A stretch of DNA of 64,000 nt from Henricia sp. BOLD:AAB3569 (Eukaryota; Echinodermata; Asteroidea; Spinulosida; Echinasteridae): positions 1,550,001-1,614,000 of the forward strand of contig JBBELK010000064.1 in assembly GCA_037783545.1 (NCBI GenBank), in the 5' to 3' direction. Below, one piece after another: positions 6,173-56,800 of this stretch (position 1 is the first letter of the stretch; each line of letters opens with the position of its first letter). Below the pieces are notes generated by a model. That model saw only the letters and a list, made by a program, of their open reading frames with translations, did no database searches and was not told the DNA's origin. The translations under genes and the position numbers were made by a program.

Positions 6173-6460
6173 CGTTACCAGACTAGCTTCTGAGACGCCG
6201 TCGTATGCTCGCAAGTGGTCGTATTACTCAGACGCATCCACTATTACGAAACATACAGACTGAGGAACATTACCAGACTAATTATTAATTCTTAATTTTT
6301 GTCTTCAAAAACTGCTTCAAAAACACCTTTCCACTCAAAAGAAACAAGATTTTTCATATTTTGTTTATTGAATGTTGTGGCCTAGATTCATGTTAGAATG
6401 ATTTCTATTGCAATTAGTTCTAGGTCAAATCGTAAATTGACAGGACTATTATGTACACAC
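5505..6460. repeat. Second inverted repeat pair overlapping the long-TIR element
   Basis: A block around CTAGAACTAATTGCAATAG (5549-5570) occurs inverted near 6403-6424, with further similarity on both sides (roughly 5505-5585 against 6391-6460). The pair partly straddles the right arm of the 4048-6172 element, suggesting nested insertions or an inversion. Confidence 0.45.
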
Positions 6461-6659
6461 AGACCGTATTTTCCAACTTTTAGACAAATCTGCCAACAGG
6501 TTTCATAAGAAGGTTTTCTGCATGGGTGTTGATATCGACGAGAGAATCTCTCAGTAGTTCTGCATCTGCTGTGATGTGTGAAACTTGGTTTCATAGAACT
6601 TCATTGTTATGTATATAATGCACCTATCAATTTTCCCCCCGGCCCCCACTCCCCCCGGG

Positions 6660-6875
6660 CTGCCCTGGCTAAGAGGTGGGGATTGTCACTTTTTGCGTGA
6701 CAAAATCCCCACCCCTGGGGCAACATTTAGGTGACCAAAATCCCCACACTCGGGCGCAAAACATGCGCGTCTTGCATACAAATGCACATACATTTTTTTT
6801 AAAGGGTCAAATGCCACCCTGGGGCATGAAAAACGTGACCAAAACCCCACCGCGGGGGTGGAGGGGTGGGGGAAA
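6660..6875. repeat. Degenerate CCCCAC/GTGACC minisatellite, copy 1
   Basis: Several degenerate units of the form GTGACCAAAATCCCCAC, spaced 30-70 bp, lie immediately upstream of the U1 promoter. They replace the sequence found upstream of U3-U9. Confidence 0.55.
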
Positions 6876-7198
6876 CAATTGATAGGTGCAATACAACAAT
6901 GCAGCGGCTTTACAGTAGCATTTCAGCATCAATGCGCATTGGCGCCTTTGATCAGCCGGGATGCCATTTTGTCTGCCGCAAGATCAATCATCCGAGTTGG
7001 CCAATCATTGCGCGCGATAGACGTGTGTAGTCGCCGGGCCGTGAATGGATCAAACGCGGCCGCCGATTGGAGAAGATGTATAAGAAGTTGCCGGTGCTAG
7101 CAGAGAATCATCACTTGCCTGCAAACTTGCAAAAGTTACAGACCAACTTTCTGCTTTCTTTTAAACATTTTGACGCTGTGTTATCCTGGGACTTCGCC

Positions 7199-8496
7199 AT
7201 GCCTGCTATCACCGTACAAAGCATTTCAACCACCGAAGGCAGCAATGCCTCGCGGCGACCCACCCATCTGATCTAACACATCTTGGACATCAAGCAAGGT
7301 ATGTAGTCCTCAATATAGATTGTTTGGCAAATCTATCAACTGTATTGAAATGCTTACTTCATTTGCAAGGAATTTATGTTATGGGCTCAACGTTTGAAAC
7401 TATAGTCATAACTCAGTGTACTATGGGCATAGACGTTTAAATTCTTCGTTAATAAGGGGATATCGAACATACGAAGGAAGAAGTTTGGTTGGTACTACGG
7501 AATTTAAGTTGCGTCGGTTCACCGGTTATGAAAGATCGGGGCAACTTTGCAAAATACGTGTTTTACATGTATCTTTTTAAACCCAGTCCTTACTAAAGTC
7601 AACATGTCTCTTTCTTTTCCCACGCAGAAACTCCAAGATCGACCGTCAATAGCAGCACGCCTCCCATTTACTCGAGCGTCCAGGGGCCGCCGAGCAAACG
7701 CCGTCGTCGCACCGTCTACAGAGACGAGCAGAGACAGCGGCTGGAGGAGGCATTTGCTACCAATCAGTACCCAAACATCAATAGCAAAAAGATGCTTGCT
7801 GATGTCATCGGCACCACTGAGAAAATAGTTCAGGTTGGTAAAATCCCACACCAGTCCCCTTTCTCTCACCAGCATGGCCTGGGTCTAGAAAATTCTTCAT
7901 GAAATTAGAAGGTGCTATATACCGCCGCTCCCATAATTTGTTAAAGAATCGCTATAGTTAAAGAATCTCCACAAGAACAAACGAAACACACATGCATCTG
8001 CAAAAAACACAAAATTATTTGGCATGCGTCATTTCGGATACATCAGTCTATAATAATTATCGGGAAAGCAGAACGTATCACCGTTGTCATTCACACGTTC
8101 CATATAGCATTATTGCTATTACACTTTTCAAGCATGTTTGTCTTGAAAACATTTTGAAAGGTAATCCTGAAAACACGTTGAAAGGTAATCCTGAGTCAAC
8201 TGAATGAAGAATGTTTAATGTCTATAATAATTAATTTTCTTGCTACTTTTTGTTTTTGCGTCAACAGGTTTGGTTCAAGAACCGCCGTGCCAGACACCGT
8301 GGCAGAGGACGTGGCAAGGGACTTCGGAGCAGCAATCAGTCTTCCAGGCCAACCGAGCAGAGGAGCGTCTCCCCGGTAGACTCACTCTCCAGAACTACGT
8401 CTCTGCCTGCCGAGGACTTGGCATCACCGCTTCCACCGTGCCCTTCCCTTCATCCCATGCAGTTCATCCATACATCGGTGCCTTCTTCCTGCGGGT
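7199..8496 (+). pseudogene. Homeobox unit U1, broken copy
   Basis: Exons are at 7199-7298 (from the internal Met), 7628-7833 and 8268-about 8496. Exon 1 has a single-base nonsense change: TAA at 7274-7276 where U2 has GAA, just before the HILDIKQ segment. Exon 3 begins correctly with VWFKNRRARHRG but is cut after the ...SSCGF codons by the junction of the 2.2-kb duplication, so the normal tail is lost. Splice sites (GTATGT donor; CCCACGCAG and CAACAG acceptors) and the homeodomain frame are still intact. The conserved promoter block lies at 6850-7075. A transcript could form but would not give the normal protein. Confidence 0.85.
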
Positions 8497-9367: not shown

Positions 9368-10928
9368 ATGCCTGCTATCACCGTACAAAGCATTTCAACC
9401 ACCGAAGGCAGCAATGCCTCGCGGCGACCCACCCATCTGATCGAACACATCTTGGACATCAAGCAAGGTATGTAGTCCTCAATATAGATTGTTTGGCAAA
9501 TCTATCAACTGTATTGAAATGCTTACTTCATTTGCAAGGAATTTATGTTATGGGCTCAACGTTTGAAACTATAGTCATAACTCAGTGTACTATGGGCATA
9601 GACGTTTAAATTCTTCGTTAATAAGGGGATATCGAACATACGAAGGAAGAAGTTTGGTTGGTACTACGGAATTTAAGTTGCGTCGGTTCACCGGTTATGA
9701 AAGATCGGGGCAACTTTGCAAAATACGTGTTTTACATGTATCTTTTTAAACCCAGTCCTTACTAAAGTCAACATGTCTCTTTCTTTTCCCACGCAGAAAC
9801 TCCAAGATCGACCGTCAATAGCAGCACGCCTCCCATTTACTCGAGCGTCCAGGGGCCGCCGAGCAAACGCCGTCGTCGCACCGTCTACAGAGACGAGCAG
9901 AGACAGCGGCTGGAGGAGGCATTTGCTACCAATCAGTACCCAAACATCAATAGCAAAAAGATGCTTGCTGATGTCATCGGCACCACTGAGAAAATAGTTC
10001 AGGTTGGTAAAATCCCACACCAGTCCCCTTTCTCTCACCAGCATGGCCTGGGTCTAGAAAATTCTTCATGAAATTAGAAGGTGCTATATACCGCCGCTCC
10101 CATAATTTGTTAAAGAATCGCTATAGTTAAAGAATCTCCACAAGAACAAACGAAACACACATGCATCTGCAAAAAACACAAAATTATTTGGCATGCGTCA
10201 TTTCGGATACATCAGTCTATAATAATTATCGGGAAAGCAGAACGTATCACCGTTGTCATTCACACGTTCCATATAGCATTATTGCTATTACACTTTTCAA
10301 GCATGTTTGTCTTGAAAACATTTTGAAAGGTAATCCTGAAAACACGTTGAAAGGTAATCCTGAGTCAACTGAATGAAGAATGTTTAATGTCTATAATAAT
10401 TAATTTTCTTGCTACTTTTTGTTTTTGCGTCAACAGGTTTGGTTCAAGAACCGCCGTGCCAGACACCGTGGCAGAGGACGTGGCAAGGGACTTCGGAGCA
10501 GCAATCAGTCTTCCAGGCCAACCGAGCAGAGGAGCGTCTCCCCGGTAGACTCACTCTCCAGAACTACGTCTCTGCCTGCCGAGGACTTGGCATCACCGCT
10601 TCCACCGTGCCCTTCCCTTCATCCCATGCAGTTCATCCATACATCGGTGCCTTCTTCCTGCGGGTTCTACCCACCACCGTACATCGCACCAATCCACCCT
10701 GGGCCCGGCAGCAGTCCTCCCCTGGGCTACACGGTGGCAACTATCCCTGGTCGCTACGGAGCATTCCTCGGTCCCGTCACCAGACTCCCTCATTGGTCTC
10801 TACCTGGTGCCTCCTCGGTTCCTTTGGCTCTATCTACGCCTCTAGCTCAGTCCACACCACGCCAGTCGGACTTTGCTAACTTTGGGGGCTATGTTTCTGG
10901 TGGACTCTTGATGATTGCTCACACATGA
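9368..10928 (+). CDS. Homeobox gene U2, paired-like, Lys50 (intact)
   Basis: Exons: 9368-9467, 9797-10002 and 10437-10928, joined in phase 1 and phase 0, giving 265 residues. The homeodomain is at residues 57-116, with R5, L16, F20, W48, F49, N51 and R53 present, Tyr at position 8 instead of Phe, and Lys at 50; recognition helix VWFKNRRARHRG. Intron 2 splits it at 46/47. An Arg/Gly-rich stretch (RGRGRGKGLRSS) after it may act in nuclear import. The tail is Pro/Ser-rich (GFYPPPYIAPIHPGPG) and ends GGLLMIAHT. THLIEHIL in exon 1 is weakly eh1-like. Expected to be a nuclear DNA-binding regulator. An upstream in-frame ATG at 9245 would add 41 residues; the internal Met is preferred because other copies break upstream of it. 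A polyadenylation candidate AATAAA lies at 11490-11495. Confidence 0.82.
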
Positions 10929-15195: not shown

Positions 15196-16407
15196 TGTAG
15201 CAAACTAATGCTACAGAGTGGGTTGACTAAAATGGTATTAAATTCCCATTGTACAATTACGCTTCCTGGAGTCCAAATTAATGCTCAATCAGTTTAATTA
15301 ATGATCAATGGAATGAGAAAAGACTATATAAATTACAGTCTACACAAATAGGTGATAAACAATTTTAACAATACTGGTTCACCGCGTTTGAATTCTCGCT
15401 AGTTCAAAGTTCCATGATTGAATGTCCTGATAGGTCCATGCGGCGTCGAAGTCCATTTCCGGAAGGCGAAACGGCTTGAAAGCTATTCGGTATGTTGGCG
15501 TATATGTGCGTGGATGCCTTGCGCCTGGTACGCAAAGATCATGTAAGACATGTCCATGGAAGTTGAAACATGAAGGGAACACTCAAAGGATCCACGCTCG
15601 GATGGTTCAGAACAGGAATTGGACTTGGAATTTGGTAGTTCACAGCCTTCGAAGTTTCCGAAGCCCGAGGGTTCACAAGCTTAGTTCACATGGTTCGGTT
15701 GATTCGAAAGAATTCGCAAGAATTCACAAGAGTTTGGTAGATTCGAAACACTTGGAAGATTCTCAGCATTTGCAAGGTTTTGCTCATAGGAAGTGGAAGT
15801 GGAAGTGGAAGTGGAAGGTTTTGCTGGAGTAAAATACAAATGCATGAAAAACACAATAAGCATCTAAATACTTGCAATGTTTTGTAGCATAAACTGAAAT
15901 TACTGAAAATCACCTTATGGCAATAAAAAACACTAACTGGGTTAAATCTTTAAACTTGGTCAGATAATCTAGGTGCATACACTTACTACAGACTAGCTTG
16001 GAAATACATGCACAGAGCACTAAACACGAACTTCACATGTGCATAAAATACAAAGAAGTACAATGTACATGTACATGTACATAAGAAACCTTTGACCTAG
16101 TTAAATTCTCGAACATGTGATTTCAAAAACGATATCAAATTCGTCTATTAATACTTACTACGCTGGGGGGATAATACTACATAACTCTTGGTTTAGTTAC
16201 AAAACACTGGCAATCAGTTTGGTACAATTTTGATGGTCTATTCAGAGGATTTACGGGTGCAAAATTGACAAGTCAAAGTAACAATCACGAATGGAATTTT
16301 GTGGAAAATCATGTGTGTAACTTTTTACGGTCTCATACAATAGCGCCCTCAATAGAGCAAAACTAATCTACGGAGTCTTAAAGTGGCTACATGTGCTGTC
16401 CGTAACA
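15196..16407 (-). repeat. LTR (3' LTR of the element)
   Basis: The LTR is 1212 bp. Its edge forms a small hairpin (TGTAGCA...TGCTACA). It contains a GGAAGT hexamer microsatellite at about 15789-15818 and a TACATG-rich stretch near 16062-16081. Because the element lies on the minus strand, this left LTR is the 3' one. Confidence 0.92.
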
Positions 16408-16501
16408 TCCCGGCCCCGATGATACGCTCAAGTTATCATCACCGAAGCATCAAGGACAGCAGTGTCGAAAATTATCTCTGTAAACGATGCAGTTCAACTG
16501 C

Positions 16502-19500
16502 CTACTCATTCTTGTCGCAGGGGTCATCCGACGGAGTTGGTGTCATCTGAGCCTCTAAAAGACAGATCTTGTCGCTTGGACGAACATAGGACCCACTTTG
16601 GGTCTTCACCTGGACTGAACGAACAAATCCGTCTTTCCCTTGGTAGGTGGCTGCGATAAGACCCAAGGGCCATCTGCAACGGGGCGTGTTCTCGTAACGC
16701 ACAAGTACGAGGTCTCCAACTTGTAGGTTCCTCTTGGGGAATAGCCACTTTTGACGATGCTGAAGCGACGGAAGGTATTCACTCAACCACCGACGCCAAA
16801 AGACGTCAGCTAGGTATTGGACCTGTCTCCAGCGTCTCCGGTAGAGGTCTTGCTGTACGAACTGTCCTGGTGGCAAATTTGGACCTGATCGAAGTAGCAA
16901 GAGGTGGTTTGGCGTGAGAGGAGAGGGATCCCTCGGATCCTCAGAAAGCTTGGTGATTGGGCGACTGTTGACTATGCTCTCAACAAGGCACATCAGCGTG
17001 GACAATCCTTCATCATCCATGACTTGCTGACGTGACAAACTATTCAGGACAGAGCGGACAGTTCTTATCTGACGCTCCCATATGCCTCCCATGTGGGAAG
17101 CTGCTGGGGGATATTAAATATCCACTGGACTTCACGTTGACGAAGGTAGTCATCGATTTGGTTCTGATTCCACTCATGCAACGCACGTCTTAGCTCGGCC
17201 TTAGCTCCCACAAAATTAGTACCGTTGTCGGAACGTATCTCAGTCGGACTTCCACGTCGACTGATAAAACGCTGCAGGGCGTTTATGAAGGAATCTGTCT
17301 CTAGGCTATGGCACACCTCTATGTGGATTGCTCTAGTTGTAAGGCAGGTAAACAGACATCCAAATCTTTTGACCTCACTCCGACCTCTCTTGACTAGGAA
17401 TGGGCCAAAGAAGTCCACCCCAACTGCATTAAAGGGGGCTTCTCCGGGTGTAACACGATCCTTTGGCAGGTCTGCCATCTTCTGGGATTCAGGTGGTGCC
17501 ATTCTCCTTTTGCATGGTATGCACCGTCGTAGCACTTGCTTAACTGACACGCGTCCTTTCACAATCCAGAATCTTTGGCGCAGTTCAGCGAGAGTCCTCT
17601 CAACACCAGCATGTCCACACTTAATGTGGTAGTGTCTGATAATGAGCTCCGTCACTGGATGCTTCCGGGGTACGATCCACGGGTGTTTGGCTTCCGTAGG
17701 AATAGCGGCATTATCCAGACGACCGCCAACACTCAGGAGTCCGTCGACTGAGATGGGGTCCAGTTTCTGGAAACGGGTTTTGGCCTGCTGTGTGTCACCA
17801 AGGTTCGCCTGTTGGATGTATCTCACGATGGCTTTCTCGGCATTAAGCAACTCTTTCACTGTTAGGGGTCTGGGTTCGATACTTCCATCCCGATTCTTGG
17901 CTACTTTCTGGCGTAGCACAGCTTTAGCACGAAGAATCCATCCAACAGTTTTCTTCAACAGGTACCACGACGAGTATCGGGCAAAGAGATCTTCAAGTAT
18001 GGTGGGTTTCGGGTCGGTGTCTTTATTGACAGCATACACTTGGGGCTGCCGCTTGATCTCAGCATCCTTGTCAATTTCAAGAGACTTGAAGTCTGGCTGT
18101 TTGGGCCAGGCGTACTCTTCTTTTATTAAGAAGGGAGGTCCCTTTATCCAGCGGTCAGAGTTGACAAGTTGCTGTGCTGTTGTGCCCCTAGAGGCATCAT
18201 CTGCGGGATTCGTAGCTGAATCCACATACTTCCACTGGGATGCGCTAGAACGCTCATGGATCACGGCTATCCGATTTGCAACGTAGGTCTGGAATTGCTT
18301 GTCTTCATTGCGCAGGTATTGCAGCACAATCATACTGTCCGTCCAGAAGATTGACTCAGCAAGTGGGATCTGCATTTCGCGCCTGATAATCTCATCTAGC
18401 TTAACTGCCACAACAGCTGCGGTGAGTTCCAGACGTGGAATCGTAGTAGCTCTTAGTGGTGCAAGTTTGGCCTTCGCCATAATGAAGGCACAATGCACCT
18501 GGCCGTCGGTATCTACTGATCGGAGGTAGCTGACCGCACCGTACGCCCTCTCAGACGCATCTGCGAAATGATGCAGCTGCATAGACGAAGTGGTGTTGGT
18601 CCCAGTTGGTTTTACACATCTAGGTATTTCCATTCCCTTTATCAGGGGCAGGTCGTTCAGCCAACGATGCCACTGTTCGGCCATATCACTTGGCATAGGG
18701 TCATCCCATCCCGTTTTAAGACGACACAGTGTCTGGAACAACATTTTGGCTCTCAGGACAAAGGGACATACGAACCCCAAGGGATCGTATATCGAGCTGG
18801 TGATACTCAGCAATCCGCGTCTTGTGACGGGTTTCTCCTTCACGTTGGTGTCAAATCCAAAGGTGTCTGATTCAACCTTCCAAAGTACTCCTAGCGCTCT
18901 CTCAGATGGAAGAATCTCGTGGTCTAAATCCATAGTTGTGATGGTCTTGGCGCACTCCTGAGGTGGCACTGACTTTAAAACTGCTCGAGAATTGCTTAAC
19001 CACTTCGTGAGCCTAAACCCACCAAGAGCTAGCAAATCTCGAAGCTGGCTGACGAGACGAATGGCTTCCGATTCAGTTGGTGTGGATTTCAAACAGTCAT
19101 CGACGTAGAAGTTCTGGTCGATGGTCTGAACGGTTTCTTTGTCGTACCTCTCATGGTAGTCAAGAGCTGTGCGCTTCAATGCGAAGCTGGCACAACTTGG
19201 GCTCCAAATGCCACCAAACAAGTGAGAAGTCATACGATATGTGAGAGGCTGGTTTCCAACCTCATCTCCTCTCCACCACAAGAAGCGAAGGGCATCTCGA
19301 TCTTCGGTATTTACACGAACCTGGTGGAACATGCTCTCTATATCTGCCATCAAGGCAATGTGCTCCTGGCGAAACCTCAAAAGGACACCAATGAGCTTAT
19401 TGGTGAGGTCAGGACCTTGGTAGACTCTGTCATTAAGTGAAGTGCCTCGGAAGTGCGCTGCACAGTCGAACACTATTCGAAGTTTGTCTGGCTTGCGAGG

Positions 19501-22431
19501 ATTTACAACAGGGTGGTGGGGCAAATACCACACATAACCATCAGCTCTGTCCATGTCACAGGTGGGTACAGCTTCTGCATGTCCTTTCTTGAGAAGGTCA
19601 TTAACACCACTGCTGTATTTCTTTAGCAGTGCGGGGTCTTTGGAGAGTCGCTTTCCTAGCGACTTCAAACGCTGTTCAGCCATTGGTTTATTATCAGGGA
19701 GGTGTGGAGGCCTTTCCTTGAAGGGAATGCTCATGGAGTAGTGGGCTTCTTCTCTATGCAGTGAATTCTCCCATATGGAAAGAACCTTTCTTTCACTGAC
19801 GGATAGGGTCTCAGTGGTGCCCCCCACGTCGTCAAGCTTCCAAAACTTCTCAACTTGATGTTGTAAGTCAAGGTCAGACTTGACAAAGTACGAGGTGGCT
19901 ACCTTGGACTTCTTGCTTAAGTCAATTGGTCCATTCAGGGTCCAGCCAAGGGTGGTCTTGGTTGCATACGGCTCGCCCAAAGCACCTACGCGGACTTCCA
20001 GTGGGACCATAACATGTGGTGCATCTTGTCCAATTAGGAGATGGACATCGTTGATGTCAACATCGGGTATCTTGATGTCACGTAGGTGTGGCCAGCAGCT
20101 GAGTTCTTCCTCAGTGACGAGACTACCGAGACCAATATTTAGTTTTGGCCTGGTAAGGACATTGGGTATTTGTATCACTTGAGAGACGTCATAATTAGCT
20201 ATTTCCAAGCTGACAACAAAGGTGTTGACTTCAGCCTCCTTCAGGTCAAGAGTTGTTAGCCTTATGGTATCCTTCTTGGCCTTAATTCCAAGGCGTCGCA
20301 TCAAGTCTTCAGAGCAGAAGCTCTGGGTTGAGCCACTGTCCATCAGCGCGTATGTACTTAAGAACTGCTGTTGTCCTGGTGCCCTTATCTTAACAGGAAC
20401 AATGGGCAAGGCTACCTTTACCTCGCCGGCCCCAGTGAGGTTGCATGCTACAACTGGATTGTTCACAGTCGGAGTCTGTGGTGGAGTGGAACTATTCGGT
20501 GCAGCCTGAGTGACTGGTGATGTTAAACTGTTATCACTACGTGTACGTGGTAGATGCAAGTACTTGCTGTGCTTCATGCCACATCCCTGGACCGTGCACA
20601 CAAAGGGGCGTGTGCAGTCCCTGCCTAGATGGCCTGGTTTGAAGCAATTTACGCAAAGCTTCTTGCCTTGCACAAATGCAAGACGGTCCTTTATGCGTAG
20701 TGCCTTGAAGGCCTCACACTGATTGAGGTAATGGGGCTGCTCACAACGCGGGCAACGTTTAATGAAAGGCGTTGTCTGGTTTGTTTGGGAGCTACCCGGA
20801 GAAACCTTCGATGAAGAAGCTAGCTGGGTGCCAAAATTCACTCGACGTTTAACAAACGTCTGGTTTCTGGACCTTGATTCCTTGGTTGCACCTCTTTGCA
20901 CGATACCTCCAAAGACCGGATCCCGTGCCTCCTCAGCAGCATCAGCTACAAAGTGGGTAACATCGTCAATGTTTGGGGCCCTCTTCTTTGTTGTTTTTAT
21001 GTGATGTACTTGCTTTAGCCATCGAGTCTTTAAGTGGTAGGGTAACTTCTCGACAATTGCTAAAAGGCTACTTCTGTTGTTTAACTCATTTAGGTATCCC
21101 ATCGTGTCTAGGGTTTCTCTGCAGCATCGAAGGTCGTCAGCAAGATCCTGCAATGCATTGTTGTCAGCGACACTTGACCCTTTAGTCACCTTATCTATCC
21201 AGGCCTGTGCAATGGTATGTTCGTCTCCAAATCTCTCCTTTAAAAGACGAAGACCAAGGGTGTATCCTTCTGACGGTAGTTTAACCGTGCAGCACTGCAG
21301 AAGTCGTCTAGCCTTCCCAGTACAGTACTGCATAAGACGGGTAAGTTTAGCTCCATCGCCGATGGTTTCTCGACCCACTGCATTTTCGAAGGCCCTGATA
21401 AATGACCAGTACCGGAGAGGGTCGCCATCAAATGTCATGAGTTCAGCCTTAGGAAGTTGTAATGCTTCAACTAATGACTGTTGGTGTATACGGGTGTCTT
21501 TAACCATCTGGCATAAAATGTTTGTTACGTCTGTGCTTGTAGCCGACGGAGATCCAAAACGATCAACAGGCGGGGAGTACGACTCGTCAACAGGTCTTAA
21601 GGTTTCATGTGTCGGTGTGTTGGCCTTTAAATTTGGTGTACTGTTTACCTGAGCAGAAGGGCTAAAACCAGGCTTGAGGTTCTCATGGTGCTTCGGTGTG
21701 TTTTCGTCATTGGGTTTAACATTGGGTGTATCTTGGGTGAAGCACACATCTGACCTACTTGCTGCATCGGCCTCTGCAAAGGTTTTCTCCAGAGCCTCAG
21801 CCCTGGCATACTTGACCTTTATTTCTGACTCTCGTCGTTGTTGATCAAGCTTAAGTTGTTGTTCTTTCAACTTCATCATGGTACGTAGCGAGGCAAGTTC
21901 AATGGCGTGTTGCTCTTGCAGGGCAATGGCCTCTGCCTCTAATGCCGCCCTCTCGGCCTTAGCTCTGAGGCGGGCACTTGCAGTCGAACTCGCAGTCGAT
22001 GCCTTGGATTTAGCACTTTGTTGACTGATGGAGTCGTCTGCATCAATGTCATCATCGGGGTTTTCATGCTGAATTTCAGGTTCGGCTTGGGTTTGGTTTT
22101 CTTCCAACCATTCCATAACTGAACAACGATAAGTTATCACTTTATTCTCTGCCTCCTTCCAATAAGCTGCAGAACTTTTCTTCTCATTGTCACTTGTAAG
22201 GTGCTTGTCATAGTCGTTATGTGCCTCAGCGAATTCTGCAAAGCACTTCTCAAACTCTTTCATGTTGGTTTCAAACTTAGGTGCATTTTTCTTGTCCTCC
22301 TTGAGGGTAGAAATTAGTTTCATTATTCTGGTCAGTGCTCCTTTGCACGTGCCCCTGGTCTTCTTCAAGTCACGTGACTGCTGTGTGGTGTTTGATGCAC
22401 TTGTAGGTGATTCGGGGTTTACTGCATCCAT
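16502..22431 (-). pseudogene. Gag-Pol polyprotein of the BEL/Pao element, frameshifted in integrase
   Basis: The first frame starts at Met 22431 and runs to 17065 (1788 residues). In order: charged, coiled-coil-like Gag N-terminus (to about 220); a Gag region of the retrotransposon-Gag/DUF1759 kind (about 320-470); two Cys/His clusters including CVNCFKPGHLGRDC near residue 591; an aspartic protease core with LMDSGSTQSF near 695; reverse transcriptase with the FYVDD box near 1108; RNase H start (HFADASERAYG) near 1288; and integrase with an N-terminal HH/CC part and two core Asp residues (VGVDFFGPF near 1670, RSDNGTNF near 1735). Around plus 17105-17115 the frame is broken by a small indel. 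The integrase stretch that should hold the catalytic Glu and the C-terminus continues in another frame (17092-16502). No envelope gene is seen. Confidence 0.88.
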
Positions 22432-22495
22432 GATTAAACAATTAGGTTATTCACTTTCAACATGTGACAAATGCGTTCAGATCGTACAAAACTAA

Positions 22496-42078: not shown

Positions 42079-43573
42079 TCATGTGCGAGCAATCATCAAG
42101 AGTCCACCAGGAGCATAGCCCTCAAAGTTATCAAAGTTCGACTGGCGTGGTGTAGACCATGGAGGAAGGAAACTTCCTCCATGTGTAGACTGAGCTAGGG
42201 GCGTAGATTGTGCCAAAGGAACCGAGGGGACACCGGGTAGAGAGCACTGAGGGAGTCCGGGGACGGAACCGAGGAAGGCTCCATAGCGACCGGGGATTGT
42301 TGCCACCGTGTAGCCCGGGGGAGGGCTGCTGTCGGGCCCAGTGTGGATTGGTTCGATGTACAGTGGTGGGTAGAACCCGCAGGAAGAAGGTACCGATGTA
42401 TGGATGAACTGGGGATGAGAGGAAAGGCACGGTGGAAGCGGTGATGCCAAGACCTCGGCAGGCAGTGGCACGGCTCTGGGGAGTGAGTCTACCGGGGAGA
42501 CGCTCTTCTGCTCGGTTGGCCTGGAAGACTGATTGCTGCTCCGAAGCCTCTTGCCACGTCCTCTGCCACGGTGTCTGACACGGCGGTTGTGGAACCAAAC
42601 CTGTTGATGCAAAAACAAAAAGTAGAAAGAAAATTAATTACATATTAGACATTCTTTATACAGTTTACTCATGATTACCTTTCAACATGTTTCCAAGACA
42701 ACATGTCTAAAAAGTGTAATAGCGATAATTTAATGCTTATATGGAAGGTGTGAATGTAACCGAACTGACGCATGCCAAATAAATGTGTTTCTTTTGTTCT
42801 TGTGGAGATTCTTTAAAAAATAGCAATTCTTTAACAAAATGTGGAGCTTCGGTATAGCACCTTCTAATTTCATAAGAATTCTGTAGGCCATTCTGGTTAG
42901 AGAAAGGGGACTGGTGTGGAATTTTACCAACCTGAACTCTTTTCTCCGTGGTGCCTATGGCATCAGCAAGCATCTCTTTGCTGTTGATGTCCAGGTACTG
43001 GTTGCTAGCAAATGCCTCTTCCAGCCGCTGTCTCTGCTCTTCGCTGAAGACGGTGCGACGACGGCGTTTGCTCGGCGGGCCCTGGACGCTCGAGTCAATG
43101 GGGGGCGTGCTGCTGTTGACGGTCAATCTTGGAGACTCTGCGTGGGAAAAGAAAGAGGCATGTTGACCTTGGTTAGCAGGACTTATTTTAAAGACACAGA
43201 TATAACATGATTTGTTGAGTTGTTGCCGCAGTCTTTCATATAACAAGGAACCTAAAAAAAGCAACCTTTTTTCTTTGCTTTTTTAACTATGCTTCTTTCG
43301 CGTATCTTGCCAAGCATTTAGGCACATACATGTACTGGGTACACCGAGTCATGATTGCGTTGATGAACTGTTTCAAAATGTGTGCTGGGGATATAACATA
43401 AATTCCTAGCTAAATGAAGTATTTAAATACAGTTGATAGTTTGACAATCGATTTTATATTGATACCAACATACCTTGCTTGATGCCCAGGATGTATTCGA
43501 TCAGGTGGGTGGGTAGCCGCAAGGCATTGCTACCTTCGGTGGTTGAGATGCTTTGTACGGTGCTAGCAGGCAT
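42079..43573 (-). CDS. Homeobox gene R5, His50/Val54
   Basis: Minus-strand exons 43573-43474, 43137-42932 and 42600-42079, giving 275 residues. The homeodomain (residues 57-116) starts KRRRRTVFSEEQ, has Leu at position 26 (QYLDIN), His at 50 and Val at 54 (WFHNRRVRHRG). RGRGRGKRLRSS follows. The tail is Pro/Ser-rich with an insertion (STHGGSFLPPWS) absent from the left array and ends APGGLLMIART. The usual upstream ATG (43700) is out of frame because a GA repeat in the leader is 4 bp longer than in R4, so the internal Met with GCCATGC context is taken as start. A 3'-flank hairpin lies near 41935-41968 and an AATAAA candidate at 41525-41520. Confidence 0.78.
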
Positions 43574-43700
43574 GGCGAAGTTCCAAGATAACACAGTGCC
43601 AAAATGTTCAAGAGAGAGAGAGCAGAAAGTTTGGCTGTAACTTTTGCAAGTTGGCAGGCAAATGATGATTTTCTGCCGGCGGGGATAACTTCTTATACAT

Positions 43701-43885
43701 CTTCTCCAATCGGCGGCCGCGTTTGATCCATTCACGGCCCGGCGACTACACACGTCTACCGCGCGCTTTGATTGATCAACTCACGTGTTTGATCTTGCTG
43801 TAGACAAAAATGGCATCCCGGCTGATCAAACGCGCCAACGCGCATTGATGCCGAAACGCCTACTGTATTGTTGTTACGATTACTG
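43701..43885 (-). promoter_or_regulatory. Conserved upstream block of R5
   Basis: It has three GATCAAAC-type motifs, a CACGTG E-box at 43782-43787 directly beside GTTTGATC, and a GATTGATCAAC stretch where other copies have the CCAAT core. It is the right-array version of the block upstream of the left units. Confidence 0.45.
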
Positions 43886-45002: not shown

Positions 45003-46554
45003 TCATGTGCAAGCAATCATCAAGAGTCCACCAGGAGCATAGCCCTCAAAGTTATCAAAGTTCGACTGGCGTGGTGTAGACCATGGAGGAAGGAAACTTC
45101 CTCCATGTGTAGACTGAGCTAGGGGCGTAGATTGCGCCAAAGGAACCGAGGGGACACCGGGTAGAGAGCACTGAGGGAGTCCGGGGACGGAACCGAGGAA
45201 GGCTCCATAGCGACCGGGGATAGTTGCCACCGTGTAGCCCGGGGGAGGGCTGCTGTCGGGCCCAGGGTGGATTGGTTCGATATACAGTGGTGGGTAGAAC
45301 CCGCAGGAAGAAGGTACCGATGTATGGATGAACTGGGGATGAGAGGAAAGGCACTGTGGAAGCGGTGATGCCAAGACCTCGGCAGGCAGTTGCACGGCTC
45401 TGGAGAGTGAGTCTACCGGGGAGACGCTCTTCTGCTCGGTTGGCCTGGAAGACTGATTGCTGCTCCGAAGCCTCTTGCCACGTCCTTTGCCACTGTGTCT
45501 GGCACGGCGGTTGTTGAACCAAGCCTGTTGATGCAAAAACAAAAAGTAGAAAGAAAATTAATTACATATTTAATAGACATTAGACATTCTTCATACAGTT
45601 TACTCATGATTACCTTTCAACATGTTTCCAAGACAACAAAAAGTGTAATAGCAATAATTTAATGCTTATATGAAGGGTGTGAATGATAACGTTCTGTTTC
45701 CCGATAATAGACTGATGTAACCGAACGGACGCATGCCAAATAAATGTGTGTTTCTTTTGTTTTTGTGGAGATTCTTTAAAAATAGCAATTTTTTTACAAA
45801 ATGTGGAGCTTCGGTATAGCACCTTCTAATTTCATAAGAATTGTGTAGGCCATTCTGGTTAGAGAAAGAGGACTGGTGTTGAATTTTACCAACCTGAACT
45901 CTTTTCTGCGCGGTGCCTATGGCATCAGCTAGCATCTCTTTGCTGTTGATGTCCGGGTACTGGTTGCTAGCAAATGCCTCATCCAGCCGCTGTCTCTGCT
46001 CGTCGCTGAAGACGGTGCGACGACGGCGTTTGCTCGGCGGGCCCTGGACGCTCGAGTCAACGGGGGACGTGCTGCTGTTGACGGTCAATCTTGGGGACTC
46101 TGCGTGGGAAAAGAAAGAGGCATGTTGACCTTGGTTAGCAGGACTTATTTTAAAGACACAGATATAACATTTTTTTCGAGTTGTTGCCGCAGTCTTTCAT
46201 ATATTAACAAGGAACCTACAAAAAGCAACCTTTTTGTTTGCTTTTTAAACTATGCTTCTTTCTGTATCTTGCCAGGGTTTTATTAAGGAAGAATTTAGGC
46301 ACATACATGTACTGGGTACACCGAGTTATGATTGCGTAGATATAGATGAACTGTTTCAAAATGTGTGCTGGGGATATAACATAAATTCCTAGCTAAATGA
46401 AGTAAGTATTTAAATACAGTTGATAGTTTGACAATCGATTTTATATTGACATACCTTGCTTGATGCCCAGGATGTATTCGATCAGGTGGGTGGGTAGCCG
46501 CAAGGCATTGCTACCTTCGGTGGTTGAGATGCTTTGTACGGTGCTAGCAGGCAT
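45003..46554 (-). CDS. Homeobox gene R4, Asn50/Ala47
   Basis: Minus-strand exons 46554-46455, 46099-45894 and 45524-45003, giving 275 residues. It is the only right copy in which the longer 5' frame is also open (ATG at 46677, 41 extra residues). The homeodomain has Pro26, Asn50 and an unusual Ala47 (QAWFNNRRARHSGKG), with Asp17 and Gln42 instead of the common Glu. Ala47 and Gln42 change positions that normally contact DNA or stabilise the fold, so binding may be weakened. The tail ends GGLLMIACT. 3' hairpin near 44859-44890; AATAAA candidate at 44437-44432. Confidence 0.78.
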
Positions 46555-46677
46555 GGCGAAGTTCCAAGATAACATAGTGTCAAAATGTTTGAGAGAGAGC
46601 AGAAAGTTTGGCTGTAACTTTTGCAAGTTGGCAGGCAAATGATGATTTTCTGCCGGCAGGGGTAACTTCTTATACAT

Positions 46678-46860
46678 CTTCTCCAATCGGCGGCCGCGTT
46701 TGATCCATTCACAGCCCGGCGACTACACACGTCTACCGCGCGCTTTGATTGGTCAACTCGCGTGGTGTTTGATCTTGCGGCAGACAAAATGGCATCCCGG
46801 CTGATCAAACGCGCCAATAATGATGCCCAAACGCCCTACAGCCGCTGCATTGTGGTTATA
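46678..46860 (-). promoter_or_regulatory. Conserved upstream block of R4
   Basis: GTTTGATC at 46698-46705 and 46767-46774, GATCAAAC at 46803-46810 and an inverted CCAAT (ATTGG) at 46748-46752. Unlike R5, the E-box next to the middle motif is changed to CGCGTGGTGTTTGATC. Confidence 0.45.
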
Positions 46861-48993: not shown

Positions 48994-50582
48994 TCATGTG
49001 CAAGCAATCATCAAGAGTCCACCAGGAGCATAGCCCTCAAAGTTATCAAAGTTCGACTGGCGTGGTGTAGACCATGGAGGAAGGAAACTTCCTCCATGTG
49101 TAGACTGAGCTAGGGGCGTAGATTGCGCCAAAGGAACCGAGGGGACACCGGGTAGAGAGCACTGACGGAGTCCGGGGACGGAACCGAGGAAGGCTCCATA
49201 GCGACCGGGGATAGTTGCCACCGTGTAGCCCGGGGGAGGGCTGCTGTCGGGCCCAGTGTGGATTGGTTCGATGTACAGTGGTGGGTAGAACCCGCAGGAA
49301 GAAGGTACCGATGTATAGATGAACTGGGGATGAGAGGAAAGGCACGGTGGAAGCGGTGATGCCAAGACCTCGGCAGGCAGTGGCACGGCTCTGGTGAGTG
49401 AGTCTACCGGGGAGACGCCCTTCTGCTCGGTTGGCCTGGAAGACTGATTGCTGCTCCGAAGCCTCTTGCCACGTCCTCTGCCACGGTGTCTGGCACGGCG
49501 GTTGTTGAACCAAACCTGTTGATGCAAAAACAAAAAGTAGAAAGAAAATTAATTACATATTAGACATTAGACATTCTTCATACAGTTTACTCATGATTGA
49601 TTACCTTTCAACATGTTTCCAAGACAACATGTCTAAAAAGTGTAATAGCGATAATTTAATGCTTATATGGAAGGTGTGAATGATAACGGTGATACGTTCT
49701 GTTTCCCGATAATAGACTGATGTAACCGATCTGACGCATGCCAAATAAATGCGTTTTTTTCACATGTGTGTTTCTTTTGTTCTTGTGGAGATTCTTTAAA
49801 AATAGCAATTCTTTAACAAAATGGGGGGCGTCGGTATAGCACCTTCTAATTTCATAAGAATTCTGTAGGCCATTCTGGTTAGAGAAAGGGGACTGGTGTG
49901 GAATTTTACCAACCTGAACTCTTTTCTCCGTGGTGCCTATAGCATAAGCAAGCATCTCTTTGCTGTTGATGTCCGGGTACTGGTTGCTAGCAAATGCCTC
50001 CTCCAGCCGCTGTCTCTGCTCGTCGCTGAAGACGGTGCGACGACGGCGTTTGCTCGGAGGGCCCTGGACGCTCGAGTCAACGGGGGGCGTGCTACTGTTG
50101 ACAGTCAATCTTGGGGACTCTGCGTGGGAAAAGAAAGAGGCACGTTGACCTTGGTTAGCAGGACTTATTTCAAAGACGCAGATAACATGTTTTGTGGAGT
50201 TGTTGCCGCAGTCTTTCAGAACAAGGAACCTAAACAAAAAAAACCTTTTCTTTGCTTTTTAAACTATGCTTCTTTCGCGTATCTTGCCAGGGTTTTATTA
50301 AGGAAGAATTATTTATAGGCACATACATGTACTGGGTAGGCTACACCGAGTTATGATTGCGTATAGATGAACTGTTTCAAAATGTGTGCTGGGGATATAA
50401 CATAAATTCCTAGCTAAATGAGGTAAGTATTTAAATACAGTTGATAGTTTGACAATCGATTTTTTTATTGATGCCAACATACCTTGCTTGATGCCCAGGA
50501 TGTATTCGATCAGGTGGGTGGGTAGCCGCAAGGCATTGCTACCTTCGGTGGTTGAGATGCTTTGTACGGTGCTAGCAGGCAT
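48994..50582 (-). CDS. Homeobox gene R3, Asn50
   Basis: Minus-strand exons 50582-50483, 50119-49914 and 49515-48994, giving 275 residues. Homeodomain: Pro26, Asn50, Ala54 (WFNNRRARHRG) and Tyr at position 36 where other copies have Asp (LAYAIG). Splice sites are normal. The upstream ATG (50704) frame is broken by a missing C (CTGCGGCAGG for CTGCCGGCAGG, near 50690), upstream of the internal Met. The tail ends GGLLMIACT. AATAAA candidate at 48430-48425. Confidence 0.78.
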
Positions 50583-50704
50583 GGCGAAGTTCCAAGATAA
50601 CACAGTGTCAAAATGTTTGAGAGAAAGCAGAAAGTTTGGCTGTAACTTTTGCAAGTTGGCAGGCAAATGATGATTTTCTGCGGCAGGGATAACTTCTTAT
50701 ACAT

Positions 50705-50895
50705 CTTCTCCAATCGGCGGCCGCGTTTGATCCATTCACGGCCCGGCGACTACACACGTCTACCGCGCGCTTTGATTGGTCAACCCACGTGTTTGATCTT
50801 GCTGTAGACAAAAATGGCATCCCGGCTGATCAAACGCGCCAACGCGCATTGATGCCGAAACGCCTACTGTATTGTTGTTACGATTACTGAAACAA
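50705..50895 (-). promoter_or_regulatory. Conserved upstream block of R3
   Basis: Same layout as R5: GTTTGATC near the first exon, inverted CCAAT, CACGTG followed by TTTGATC, and a distal GATCAAACGCG. Inferred from conservation. Confidence 0.45.
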
Positions 50896-52004: not shown

Positions 52005-53519
52005 TCATGTGCGAGCAATCATCAAGAGTCCACCAGGAGCATAGCCCTCAAAGTTATCAAAGTTCGACTGGCGTGGTGTAGACCATGGAGGAAGGAAACT
52101 TCCTCCATGTGTAGACTGAGCTAGGGGCGTAGATTGCGCCAAAGGAACCGAGGGGACACCGGGTAGAGAGCACTGAGGGAGTCCGGGGACGGAACCGAGG
52201 AAGGCTCCATAGCGACCGGGGATAGTTGCCACCGTGTAGCCCGGGGGAGGGCTGCTGCCGGGCCCAGGGTGGATTGGTTCAATGTACAGTGGTGGGTAGA
52301 ACCCGCAGGAAGAAGATACCGATGTATGGATGAACTGGGGATGAGAGGAAAGGCACGGTGGAAGCGGTGATGCCAAGACCTCGGCAGGCAGTGGCACGGC
52401 TCTGGTAAGTGAGTCTACCGGGGAGACGCTCTTCTGCTCGGTTGGCCTGGAAGACTGATTGCTGCTCCGAAGCCTCTTGCCACGTCCTCTGCCACGGTGT
52501 CTGACACGGCGGTTGTGGAACCAAACCTGTTGATGCAAAAACAAAAAGTAGAAAGAAAATTAATTACATATTAGACATTCTTCATACAGTTTACTCATGA
52601 TTACCTTTCAACATGTTTCCAAGACAACATGTCTAAAAAGTGTAATAGCGATAATTTAATGCTTATATGGAAGGTGTGAATGTAACCGAACTGACGCATG
52701 CCTAATAAATGTGTTTCTTTTGTTCTTGTGGAGATTCTTTAAAAAATAGCAATTCTTTAACAAAATGTGGAGCTTCGGTATAGCACCTTCTAATTTCATA
52801 AGAATTCTGTAGGCCATTCTGGTTAGAGAAAGGGGACTGGTGTGGAATTTTACCAACCTGAACTCTTTTCTCCGTGGTGCCTATGGCATCAGCAAGCATC
52901 TCTTTGCTGTTGATGTCCAGGTACTGGTTGCTAGCAAATGCCTCTTCCAGCCGCTGTCTCTGCTCTTCGCTGAAGACGGTGCGACGACGGAGTTTGCTCG
53001 GCGGGCCCTGGACGCTCGAGTCAATGGGGGGCGTGCTGCTGTTGACGGTCAATCTTGGAGACTCTGCGTGGGAAAAGAAAGAGGCATGTTGACCTTGGTT
53101 AGCAGGACTTATTTTAAAGACACAGATATAACATTTTTTTGTCGAGTTGTTGCCGCAGTCTTTTATATATTAACAAGGAATCTAAAAAAGCAACCTTTTT
53201 ATTTGCTTTTTAAACTATGCTTCTTTCCGTATCTTGCCAGGGTTTTATTAAGGAAGAATTTAGGCACATACATGTACTGGGTACACCGAGTTATGATTGC
53301 GTAGATATAGCTGAACTGTTTCAAAATTTGTGCTGGGGATATAACATAAATTCCTAGCTAAATGAAGTAAGTATTTAAATACAGTTGATAGTTTGACAAT
53401 CGATTTTATATTGACATACCTTGCTTGATGCCCAGGATGTATTCGATCAGGTGGGTGGGTAGCCGCAAGGCATTGCTACCTTCGGTGGTTGAGATGCTTT
53501 GTACGGTGCTAGCAGGCAT
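52005..53519 (-). CDS. Homeobox gene R2, His50/Val54
   Basis: Minus-strand exons 53519-53420, 53063-52858 and 52526-52005, giving 275 residues. The homeodomain matches R5 in Leu26, His50 and Val54, but the N-terminal arm has Leu at position 2 (SKLRRRT for SKRRRRT), losing one basic minor-groove residue. The tail ends GGLLMIART and has SVSSSCGF for SVPSSCGF. The upstream ATG (53644) is out of frame because the leader GA repeat is 2 bp longer. The R2 and R5 genes and spacers are very alike, suggesting recent duplication or conversion across R3/R4. AATAAA candidate at 51441-51436. Confidence 0.78.
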
Positions 53520-53644
53520 GGCGAAGTTCCAAGATAACATAGTGTCAAAATGTTTGAGAGAGAGAGCAGAAAGTTTGGCTGTAACTTTTGCAAGTTGGCA
53601 GGCAAATGATGATTTTCTGCCGGCAGGGGTAACTTCTTATACAT

Positions 53645-53835
53645 CTTCTCCAATCGGCGGCCGCGTTTGATCCATTCACGGCCCGGCGACTACACACGTC
53701 TACCGCGCGCTTTGATTGATCAACTCACGTGTTTGATCTTGCTGTAGACAAAAATGGCATCCCGGCTGATCAAACGCGCCAACGCGCATTGATGCCGAAA
53801 CGCCTACTGTATTGTTGTTACGATTACTGAAACAA
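53645..53835 (-). promoter_or_regulatory. Conserved upstream block of R2
   Basis: GTTTGATC near the first exon, GATTGATCAACTCACGTG in the middle and a distal GATCAAACGCG; nearly the same as R5. Confidence 0.45.
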
Positions 53836-54812
53836 ATAAACCGACTTGTACTTGGAAAGCCATGTAGATTGAATAGAAAGAAATGCTGCCCCTACTTTTT
53901 CGTTAATAGAATCATTATGGAGAGATGAAAACTAAGGACGGAAACTGCAGCAATTTTCCACAATTCCAGTTTGAAGTTTTATGTTTTTTCTTTGCTTTTC
54001 TGGTGTGTGTTCCAAAAGTGACATGCCCCAAACAGCGCCCTCTTTCTGGGAGTTTCTGTAAAGAAATTTTCAAAGTAAAAAAATGCCACCTTTTACTCAT
54101 TATGGCATTAAAATAAACAGTAGTATTGACTTGCTAAACACGTTATCCTTCATATGCAGCAAAAACTGTGCATAAGTTATTTAGCATTTCAGGGGCCCGT
54201 TAACTGGAAACACCATAGCTTATACTGTCGTCCCGATGACCTAATTTTTTTTTCTGTGCGGAAAAAGTAATAATTGCTGAATGTTGGATTTTCCTTTCAA
54301 TTCTTTGTACAAAGAAATTGAATATTAAGTAAAAGGGGAATTAAAATACAAATTGCGATTGGTTAAGGAGCTAGCACGTGAATTTATTGCACAATAAAAT
54401 GTGATTTACATGTACAGTACAATTAAGAAAATCAGTTGTGATGATTTGAATACATGTATTAACTTTCAGTTGAACAGAGTGAAATTGCAACTTGTTTAGA
54501 AAAAATTAGCACAAACATTTATTGCGCAGTTAATGTATTGGGAATTACATACTTTATGAAACGACAATTTGTTTGTGAAACGACAAGTTTGAATTGGTCA
54601 TACAGGTGTCTACACATTTTGTCAAACAACATAACGTATAACCTAATATAACGTATAACCTATAATATACGTTGTACATGAACAGAAAAAAATTTGAACT
54701 TGTAGTTTGGTCGTTTTATAACATAGCCCGTTTGACACGTATAAAATTTAAATAATGTATAACATAATATTATGGAAAGCCATTTTGGGTATTAAAACTA
54801 TGTTACAAATGT

Positions 54813-56394
54813 TCATGTGCGAGCAATCATCAAGAGTCCACCAGGAGCATAGCCCTCAAAGTTATCAAAGTTCGACTGGCGTGGTGTAGACCATGGAGGA
54901 AGGAAACTTCCTCCATGTGTAGACTGAGCTAGGGGCGTAGATTGCGCCAAAGGAACCGAGGGGATACCGGGTAGAGAGCACTGAGGGAGTCCGGGGACGG
55001 AACCGAGGAAGGCTCCATAGCGACCGGGGATAGTTGCCACCGTGTAGCCCGGGGGAGGGCTGCTGCCGGGCCCAGGGTGGATTGGTTCGATGTACAGTGG
55101 TGGGTAGAACCCGCAGGAAGAAGGTACCGATGTATGGATAAACTGGGGATGAGAGGAAAGGCACGGTGGAAGCGGTGATGCCAAGTCCTCGGCAGGCAGT
55201 GGCACGGCTCTGGGGAGTGAGTCTCCCGCGGAGACGCTCTTCTGCTCGGTCGGCCTGGAAGACTGATTGCTGCTCCGAAGCCTCTTGCCACGTCCTCTGC
55301 CACGGTGTCTGGCACGGCGGTTGTGGAACCAAACCTGTTGATGCAAAAACAAAAAGTAGAAAGAAAATTAATTACATATTAGACATTAGACATTCTTCAT
55401 ACAGTTTACTCATGATTACCTTTCAACATGTTTCCAAGACAACATGTCTAAAAAGTGTAATAGCGATAATTTAATGCTTATATGGAAGGTGTGAATGATA
55501 ACGGTGATACGTTCTGCTTTCCCGATAATAGACTGATGTAACCGAACTGACGCATGCCAAATAAATGCGGTTTTTTTTCACAAGTGTGTTTCCTTTGTTC
55601 TTGTGGAAATTCTTTAAAAATAGCAATTCTTTAACAAAATGGGGAGCTTCGGTATAGCACCTTCTAATTTCATAAGAATTGTGTAGGCCATTCTGGTTAG
55701 AGAAAGGGGACTGGTGTGGAATTTTACCAACCTGAACTGTTTTCTCCGTGGTGCCTATGGCATCAGCAACCATCTCTTTGCTGTTGATGTCTAGGTACTG
55801 GTTGCTAGCAAATGCCTCCTCCAGCCGCTGTCTTTGCTCGTCGCTGAAGACGGTGCGACGAGGGCGTTTGCTCGGCGGGCCCTGGACGCTCGAGTCAACG
55901 GGGGGCGTGCTGCCGTTGACGGTCAATTTTGGAGACTCTGCGTGGGAAAAGAAAGAGGCATGTTGACCTTGGTTAGCAGGACTTATTTTAAAGACACAGT
56001 TATAACATGTTTTGTCGAGTTGTTGCCGCAGTCTTTCATATAACAAGGAACCTAAAAAAAAGCAACCTTTTTCTTTGCTTTTTAAACTATGCTTCTTTCG
56101 CGTATCTTGCCAGGGTTTTATTAAGGAATAATTTAGGCACATACATGTACTGGGTACACCGCGAGTTATGATTGCGTAGATGAACTGTTTCAACATTTGT
56201 GATGGGGATATAACATAAATTCCCAGCTAAATGAAGTAAGTATTTAAATACAGTTGATAGTTTGACAATCGATTTTATATTGATGCCAACATACCTTGCT
56301 TGATGCCCAGGATGTATTCGATCAGGTGGGTGGGTAGCCGCAAGGCATTGCTACCTTCGGTGGTTGAGATGCTTTGTACGGTGCTAGCAGGCAT
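54813..56394 (-). CDS. Homeobox gene R1, His50/Ala54
   Basis: Minus-strand exons 56394-56295, 55937-55732 and 55334-54813, giving 275 residues. Homeodomain: Pro at position 3 (KRPRRT), Leu26, Val for Leu at 34 region (EMVADAIG), Thr44 (TEKTVQ), His50 and Ala54 (WFHNRRARHRG). The tail ends GGLLMIART. The upstream ATG (56521) is out of frame because the leader GA repeat is 4 bp longer than in R4. It is the outermost right unit and the only right unit whose upstream region matches the left array (G-rich tract at 56718-56738 and beyond). The 3'-flank hairpin is deleted. AATAAA candidate at 54388-54383. Confidence 0.78.
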
Positions 56395-56521
56395 GGCGAA
56401 GTTCCAAGATAACACAGTGTCAAAATGTTCAAGAGAGAGAGAGCAGAAAGTTCGGCTGTAACTTTTGCAAGTTGGCAGGCAAATGATGATTTTCTGCCGG
56501 CGGGGGTAACTTCTTATACAT

Positions 56522-56800
56522 CTTCTCCAATCGGCGGCCGCGTTTGATCCATTCACGGCCCGGCGACTACACACGTCTATCGCGCGCATTGATTGGCCAA
56601 CTCGCATGATTGACAGACAAACTGGGCATCCCGGCTGATCAAACGCGCCAATGCGCATTGATGCCGAAATGCTACTGTAAAGCCGCGCTGCATTGTTGTA
56701 TTGCACCTATCAATTGTTTCCCCCACCCCTCCACCCCCGATGACCTGAATTTGTTTGTGCCGAAAAAGCAATAATTGCCGAATTTTGTAATTTCCTTTCA
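56522..56800 (-). promoter_or_regulatory. Upstream block of R1, left-array type
   Basis: It reads, reversed, like the left-array block: GATCAAACGCGGCC, a CCAAT core, GATCAGCCGGGATGCC, TTGATAGGTGCAAT and the GGGGGTGGAGGGGTGGGGG tract, then the left spacer sequence (AATTCGGCAATTATTGC). Other right units lack the G-rich tract. Confidence 0.55.

Follow-up and report, generated by a model that had tools for sequence, protein, structure and literature searches.

The 64-kb stretch analysed here, referred to below as the window and numbered from its first letter, comes from the sea star Henricia sp. BOLD:AAB3569 (GenBank assembly GCA_037783545.1, contig JBBELK010000064.1, positions 1,550,001 to 1,614,000 of the forward strand) and contains two facing arrays of a paired-class homeobox gene, which is most probably sea-star phb, a member of the echinoderm pmar1/phb class. 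BLAST searches of the window with one + strand unit and one - strand unit located 15 units, nine on the + strand (the plus arm) and six on the - strand (the minus arm), a unit being a promoter block and/or exons in register where these survive. All copy counts refer to the window. The promoter blocks of the plus arm begin at 6857, 9026, 11641, 14257, 25386, 28013, 29485, 31069 and 33694; in the minus arm, exon 1 is complete at 56394, 53519, 50582, 46554 and 43573, and the sixth unit is a remnant at 40944-39723. The 3' ends of the two arms point at each other, so that the arrays lie tail-to-tail. Most neighbouring plus-arm units are spaced 2615-2627 bp apart, the exceptions being 1474 and 1584 bp after two deleted units, 2169 bp after the truncated P1 and 11129 bp across a retroelement, and the ATG-to-ATG distances in the minus arm are 2875, 2937, 4028 and 2981 bp. 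An earlier note on this DNA, made from the letters alone, had described nine + units facing six - units tail-to-tail, with about seven of them intact and a plus-arm period of about 2.6 kb, all of which agrees with these positions; its minus-arm period of about 2.95 kb is typical, save for the single 4-kb step.

Full open frames are retained in 7 of the 15 units. Two are in the plus arm and encode proteins of 265 amino acids with lysine at homeodomain residue 50 (K50): P2 (9026-10928; exons 9368-9467, 9797-10002 and 10437-10928) and P5 (25386-27288; exons 25728-25827, 26157-26362 and 26797-27288). The other five, each of 275 amino acids, are M2 (42079-43867; exons 43573-43474, 43137-42932 and 42600-42079; H50, V54), M3 (45003-46856; exons 46554-46455, 46099-45894 and 45524-45003; A47, N50), M4 (48994-50871; exons 50582-50483, 50119-49914 and 49515-48994; N50), M5 (52005-53811; exons 53519-53420, 53063-52858 and 52526-52005; H50, V54) and M6 (54813-56735; exons 56394-56295, 55937-55732 and 55334-54813; H50). 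The remaining 8 units are broken by various lesions (a stop, a 2-bp insertion, the retroelement, deletions, a frameshift or a rearrangement).

Exon register and splice sites bear out the earlier note's proposal of a single three-exon source gene whose phase-0 intron lies at homeodomain 46/47. Exon 1 ends in CAAG, followed by GTATGT, and intron 1 is in phase 1; exon 2 begins after CCCACGCAG and ends in GTTCAG, followed by GTTGGT; and exon 3 begins after CAACAG, which places the phase-0 intron 2 between residues Q46 and V47 of the homeodomain. A unit measures 1.5-1.6 kb from ATG to stop. The Pfam homeobox profile PF00046 matches M4 (E value 8.7e-19) and P2 (8.6e-17), with one homeodomain per protein in both.

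Probable kinship with sea-star phb

Relatives were retrieved with two queries. A single minus-arm protein, searched with E values up to 10, gave eight hits, which included Lytechinus and Amphiura homeobox proteins; no near-identical protein was among these eight. The second query was an alignment of two window proteins with P0004 (from Amphiura) and P0001 (database proteins are given by such identifiers), from which the best 120 of 318 hits were taken. Among these, the only protein aligned over 99% of the query was P0129, a 295-amino-acid protein of Patiria miniata that carries the source name prophet of Pit-1-like. P0129 is 46% identical to M4 in a MAFFT alignment, and 38% identical by BLAST with an E value of 4e-47 in a two-sequence comparison. 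It has in common with the window proteins the MPA start, HLI..ILG, SPPPGYTVAT.PGRY and GGLL.IA. The N-terminal HLIEYILG or HLIEHILG of the window proteins aligns with HLIADILG in P0129 and with FSIEGILG in Amphiura P0004, with H in place of the F of the latter, and an H-first form of this octapeptide is also found in Pax (HSIDGILG). An unnamed phb-like fragment, P0230, likewise breaks after Q46. No protein named pmar1, micro1 or hbox12 was present among the eight single-query hits or the best 120 of 318 hits to the alignment.

The strongest evidence for kinship lies outside the homeodomain. With the homeodomain removed, the N and C parts of four of the seven intact copies (M4, P2, M6 and P5) were searched separately against 242 proteins (122 homeobox-search hits and 120 retroelement proteins), with 968 shuffled sequences as a control. 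P0129 was the top match for both parts in all four copies, at E values of 6.6e-7 to 7.9e-6 for the C part and 6.2e-5 to 5.1e-3 for the N part, and the runner-up protein reached only 0.074 and the best shuffled sequence 0.087. P0129 is thus the only retrieved protein with a clear match beyond the homeodomain. The word TAEQRH, encoded by the published forward primer for phbA of Patiria pectinifera (Pp-phbA), is present in P0129 alone of the 242 proteins; the reverse primer encodes the common VQVWFQ (58 of 242), and neither phbB primer matched any of the 242. This phbA primer word marks P0129 as a probable PhbA and, with it, the array as most probably a phb array. In a homeodomain tree of 41 rows and 60 columns, the seven window copies form one group (support 100/99), which is joined by P0129 (97/74) and then by Amphiura P0004 (83/39). 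The single hit on "phb" in a starfish genome paper proved to be PHB2 (prohibitin), and not the homeobox gene.

The earlier note had found no homeodomain that it could name with confidence. The gene can now be named, most probably as phb, with Patiria P0129 as its nearest relative along the whole protein. The suggestion of a young tandem homeobox array with pmar1/phb kinship is supported, and the placement in a known tandem family that the note had put forward as a check came out positive. The retroelement that splits unit P4, the different residues 50 of the two arms and the mosaic promoter of M6, all described below, go beyond what the note mentions.

Divergence of the arms and of residue 50

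Nine units (P2, P3, P5, P7 and M2-M6) were compared whole, and their identity is far beyond chance. Pairs differ by 1.8-2.5% within the plus arm, by 1.9-3.8% among M2-M5, by 5.8-6.7% between M6 and the rest of the minus arm and by 16-19% between arms; mean synonymous divergence is 0.15 between arms and about 0.03 within them. Because divergence between arms exceeds that within them, we infer that the arms parted first and that each was amplified or homogenised afterwards. The promoter of M6 (56395-56735) is an arm-to-arm mosaic, its upstream portion resembling the plus arm: the first 120 aligned columns differ by 4% from P3 and by 48% from the nearest other minus-arm unit; over the following 120 columns the difference is 3% from P5 and 9% from M3. 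Sequence has therefore probably moved between the arms.

Residue 50 is the main DNA-specificity residue of the homeodomain, and it is fixed for different states in the two arms. All six plus-arm units that retain it (P1, P2, P3, P4, P5 and P7) have K50, and the intact minus-arm units have H50 (three of five) or N50 (two of five); the codons are AAG in P2 and P5, CAC in M2, M5 and M6, and AAC in M3 and M4. Q50 is found in P0129, P0004, P0001, P0130, two Lytechinus rows and two Ptychodera rows. The states would lie one base apart in the series CAG, CAC, AAC or CAG, AAG, AAC. In the passages of the phb/pmar1 literature consulted for comparison, no phb protein with K50 or N50 is reported. Elsewhere, TAATCC is the preferred site of CRX (K50), and mutation to K50N moves the preference to TAATTA (PMC10645426). 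Judged from these residues, drift or selection has most likely shifted the DNA targets of the two arms apart.

N51 and W48 are constant in the seven intact copies. Within the minus-arm proteins, variation is highest in the homeodomain. Among the five intact minus-arm units, the amino acid varies at 15 of the 60 homeodomain codons and at 18 of the 215 codons in the rest of the protein (Fisher p 0.0012), and at positions 47, 50, 51 and 54, which we take to be the DNA-contact residues, three of the four vary and N51 is constant (hypergeometric p 0.045). When all seven copies are included, the homeodomain excess has p 0.135 (21 of 71 variable codons fall in the homeodomain) and the contact residues p 0.119, and the plus-arm pair P2 and P5 has no homeodomain variation. 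The mean ratio of non-synonymous to synonymous divergence (dN/dS) in the minus arm, computed from pairs that are not independent and with a homeodomain interval set one residue late (58-117), is 0.95 for the homeodomain, 0.84 for the C-terminal part and 0.31 for the N-terminal part, with a mean of 6.8 non-synonymous and 2.0 synonymous changes per pair in the homeodomain. The homeodomain is also more variable at silent sites, and amino-acid versus silent variable codons, compared between the homeodomain and the rest, give p 0.096. Exon 1 is identical in all five units. This pattern fits relaxed constraint or diversification and does not distinguish the two.

Relaxed constraint is a serious possibility, although we do not think it probable: copy number in a phb array under largely lost selection would be held by unequal exchange while the homeodomain drifted, the residue-50 changes would be neutral or loss-of-function, and one, two or none of the copies would matter. 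The near-neutral ratios of the homeodomain and C-terminal part and the eight broken units are what such decay would leave, and in Paracentrotus lividus copies with premature stops are transcribed, unless these are sequencing errors (PMC5370098). Decay accounts less readily for the full frames kept in five minus-arm and two plus-arm units, for the invariance of N51 and W48, and for the constrained N-terminal part with its identical exon 1.

The opposite reading, that positive selection drove contact residues 47, 50 and 54 apart among the copies, seems to us rather unlikely. It draws on the excess of homeodomain and contact-residue changes among the minus-arm units and on the fixed difference of K versus H/N between arms, but dN/dS does not rise above 1, the excess fades in the seven-copy tests and is absent from the plus-arm pair, and the silent-site variation and the non-independence of pairs weaken it further. 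In its fullest form, offered as no more than a tentative proposal, phb would be a specificity-diversifying array, in which two repressor arms (K50 against H50/N50) with diverging contacts at 47 and 54 provide several DNA specificities from one locus in the first hours of development, with a parallel in the H50 of the brittle-star protein Pplx.

Promoters and a proposed early role

Promoters were aligned for the 13 of 15 units that have an exon-1 ATG, with M1 left out (3.9 kb in total). TATAAG lies about 120 bp upstream of the ATG in 12 of the 13, P5 reading TATAATAAG, and each promoter also has between one and three CCAAT-type elements, along with two or three GATCAAA sites. These 3.9 kb hold 31 of the 51 GATCAAA sites of the window, and in Markov shuffles of two single promoters the count was as high in 9 of 2000 for P3 and in 0 of 2000 for M4. 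Between arms, the difference is 10% for the 300-bp promoter, 13% for intron 2 and 31% for intron 1 as well as for the 3' flank; the promoter is thus under mild constraint at best. Autoregulation was also sought and is unsupported, since TAATCC or TAATTA/TAATTG sites occur in 0 of the 13 promoters.

We consider it likely that the locus arose by lineage-specific tandem amplification of a phbA-type sea-star phb, the units encoding early zygotic repressors and the two arms now reading different sites. An early zygotic role is suggested for the units because their relatives act early: Pmar1 is described as an early repressor downstream of beta-catenin (PMC10322840), and expression of starfish phbA and phbB peaks at midblastula (PMC8505446). 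By analogy, each short unit would be activated early from the zygotic genome, possibly by maternal beta-catenin acting through the TCF-like GATCAAA sites, and its protein would repress targets through the N-terminal eh1/octapeptide-like motif. Many copies could yield a fast pulse of mRNA within short cleavage cycles, so that amplification would serve dose and output. After the arms had parted, the K50 proteins of the plus arm would prefer TAATCC-type sites and those of the minus arm other sites, probably of the TAATTA type for N50.

Known systems offer parallels of varying closeness. Sea urchins and a brittle star are known to have tandem pmar1/phb arrays (PMC5370098, PMC4709884, PMC11310086); among the articles listed in searches of the open-licence PMC library, from which most subscription journals are absent, none was seen to report a sea-star phb array. 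The closest relatives, phbA and phbB of Patiria pectinifera (with P0129 of P. miniata as a probable PhbA), share full-length similarity, HLI..ILG, the C-terminal motifs and a paired-class homeodomain with the array gene, but P0129 has Q50, and two genes are named, phbA and phbB, against the 15-unit array described here (PMC8505446). The echinoid pmar1/micro1/hbox12 genes, which also encode a paired-class homeodomain, exist in many similar copies in both orientations, some in tandem and some broken, with transposon relics nearby; hbox12 of P. lividus differs in having two exons and one intron in place of three exons (PMC5370098). Q50 is implied for echinoid pmar1, in contrast to K, H or N here, a comparison made by description only (PMC4709884). 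A potential TCF/LEF motif is said to be the sole cis element common to the beta-catenin-dependent pmar1-like genes of sea-urchin species (PMC5370098). Tandem duplication and early expression are described for phb of Amphiura filiformis (PMC11310086), and the Afi-pplx protein Pplx has H50 (PMC4709884), like three minus-arm copies; Amphiura P0004, unlike the window proteins, combines Q50 with FSIEGILG.

Among more distant systems, DUX4 has a role in the early embryo, and Bicoid is a single gene of another homeodomain class. Mammalian DUX4 and LEUTX-type genes are, like the array gene, early-embryo paired-like genes, LEUTX being of the K50 type (PMC6258689); DUX4 has a double homeodomain instead of one, and orthology is unsupported, which leaves an analogy only. 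In Bicoid, the change Q50K altered the specificity of an embryonic homeodomain (PMC6177261).

Several observations weigh against the proposed amplification of a repressor-encoding phb. With regard to kinship, P0129 was not among the eight hits of the single-protein search, its identity as PhbA depends on one six-residue primer word, and the tree forks joining P0129 and P0004 were not starred. Union tests on the 60-column homeodomain rejected neither DUX nor SEBOX kinship, with a p value in the approximately unbiased test (p-AU) of 0.189 for the window copies with DUX and of 0.663 for the window copies with SEBOX, at a likelihood 1.57 higher, with SEBOX represented by one row on a long branch (P0218); outside the homeodomain P0218 appears once in the top-four lists, at an E value of 0.53 (M6, C part). 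Taken by itself, the homeodomain has too few residues to settle kinship, and it is the evidence outside it that carries the phb case. With regard to mechanism, the eh1-like motif starts with H rather than F, and the GATCAAA motif was chosen after inspection, the full CTTTGATC being present in P1 and P2 only. Most hbox12 genes of P. lividus are reported to be independent of beta-catenin (PMC5370098), and phb genes are described as positive inputs into sea-star hesC (PMC7719182), for which a direct repressor would need an intermediate. Brittle-star Pplx, with H50 and without eh1, failed to repress in sea-urchin embryos and did not replace Pmar1 (PMC4709884).

Two further alternatives fare worse. 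It is improbable that assembly error, through collapsed or unmerged haplotypes, inflated the copy number: several 300-bp blocks (families D1, D2 and D11-D13) are 100% identical between P1 and P2, but a stop and the truncation of exon 3 distinguish these two units, private deletions, the retroelement and frameshifts set other units apart, and the arms differ by 16-19%. Membership in DUX/sDUX, SEBOX or the K50 paired-like class (Otx, Pitx, Gsc and Dmbx) in place of phb is very improbable. In its favour, the top PDB matches are DUX4 homeodomains, HD2 of DUX4 also carries RARH.G.G, K50 is present in the plus arm and the unions with DUX and SEBOX are not rejected. Against it, the DUX4 score sums two matches and the window gene has a single homeodomain, the union test rejects the K50 class (p-AU 0.01, with human sequences standing for the class), and beyond the homeodomain only P0129 matches clearly.

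The sea-urchin embryonic network is headed by the pmar1 genes. If the array is an amplified sea-star phb, as we favour, its presence together with the residue-50 changes between and within arms suggests that the pmar1/phb class is prone to repeated amplification, and that the targets of the class may be rewired on each occasion. The array opens to testing the long-standing question of how embryos tolerate fast turnover of their first regulatory genes.

Broken units, relics and the retroelement

P1 (6857-8497, + strand) comprises a promoter (6857-7195), exon 1 (7199-7298) with a TAA stop inside the eh1-like motif, exon 2 (7628-7833) and a short, truncated exon 3 from 8268. P3 (11641-13544, +) has a 2-bp insertion in exon 1 that shifts the frame, with exons 2 and 3 open. 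The same insertion is shared by P4 (14257-24655, +), whose exon 2 is interrupted by a Pao-type long terminal repeat (LTR) retroelement and whose exon 3 begins at 24185. In both units (11983-12084 in P3 and 14599-14700 in P4) the insertion creates GAAG/GTATAG, a possible donor in the correct phase; splicing there in P3 would lose the eh1-like motif, with the homeodomain staying in frame.

The retroelement, of Pao/BEL type, occupies 15196-23706 on the - strand, antisense to P4, with its ends placed by eye. Its polyprotein open reading frame (17065-22446) is open for 1793 amino acids from stop to stop, and the target repeat is AAAGA(T). The insertion is recent, since the 1.22-kb LTRs are 99.75% identical (3 mismatches in 1221). 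Among the best 120 of 4524 matches to its reverse-transcriptase/peptidase piece, a Patiria miniata protein is closest (76%), followed by an unnamed ENA protein (75%), Asterias rubens (67%), a further Patiria protein (66%) and fish (61-62%). Like the Patiria homologue of the homeobox gene, this closest match indicates sea-star DNA.

Downstream of P5, the deleted unit at 28013-28754 (+) has its promoter fused to the 3' part of exon 3 and lacks exons 1 and 2, the beginning of exon 3 and hence the homeodomain; a perfect 62-bp tandem repeat (1.9 copies) lies within it at 28264-28382. In the next deleted unit, P6x (29485-30361, +), the promoter and exon 1 survive together with the 3' portion of exon 3; exon 2 is missing, as is the beginning of exon 3. 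In P7 (31069-32975, +) the homeodomain is intact and a frameshift in exon 3 past it gives a protein of 238 amino acids that stops at 32892; this product (31414-32892), a homeodomain with an altered C-terminus, could be a competitor without the conserved tail. P8 (33694-34645, +) has an open exon 1 and a cut exon 2 that runs into fragments of exon 3, without a homeodomain. The minus-arm remnant, M1 (39723-40944, -), likewise lacks a homeodomain and consists of a promoter, a partial exon 1 and the start of exon 2 fused to exon 3.

Six additional promoter relics extend the remains of the array to 58605. Two are on the + strand (35968-36155 and 37866-38065), the first with a 32-bp fragment of exon 1 nearby (36334-36365); of the four on the - strand, one lies at 47872-47773 and three lie outside M6, within 56830-58605 (56964-56830, 57929-57877 and 58605-58392). 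Ten open reading frames outside the units, eight flanking and two between them, have no Pfam match at an E value of 0.1. An open reading frame at 1575-1970 on the - strand encodes ankyrin repeats (Pfam Ank_2, E value 3e-11) and represents a neighbouring gene or a piece of one.

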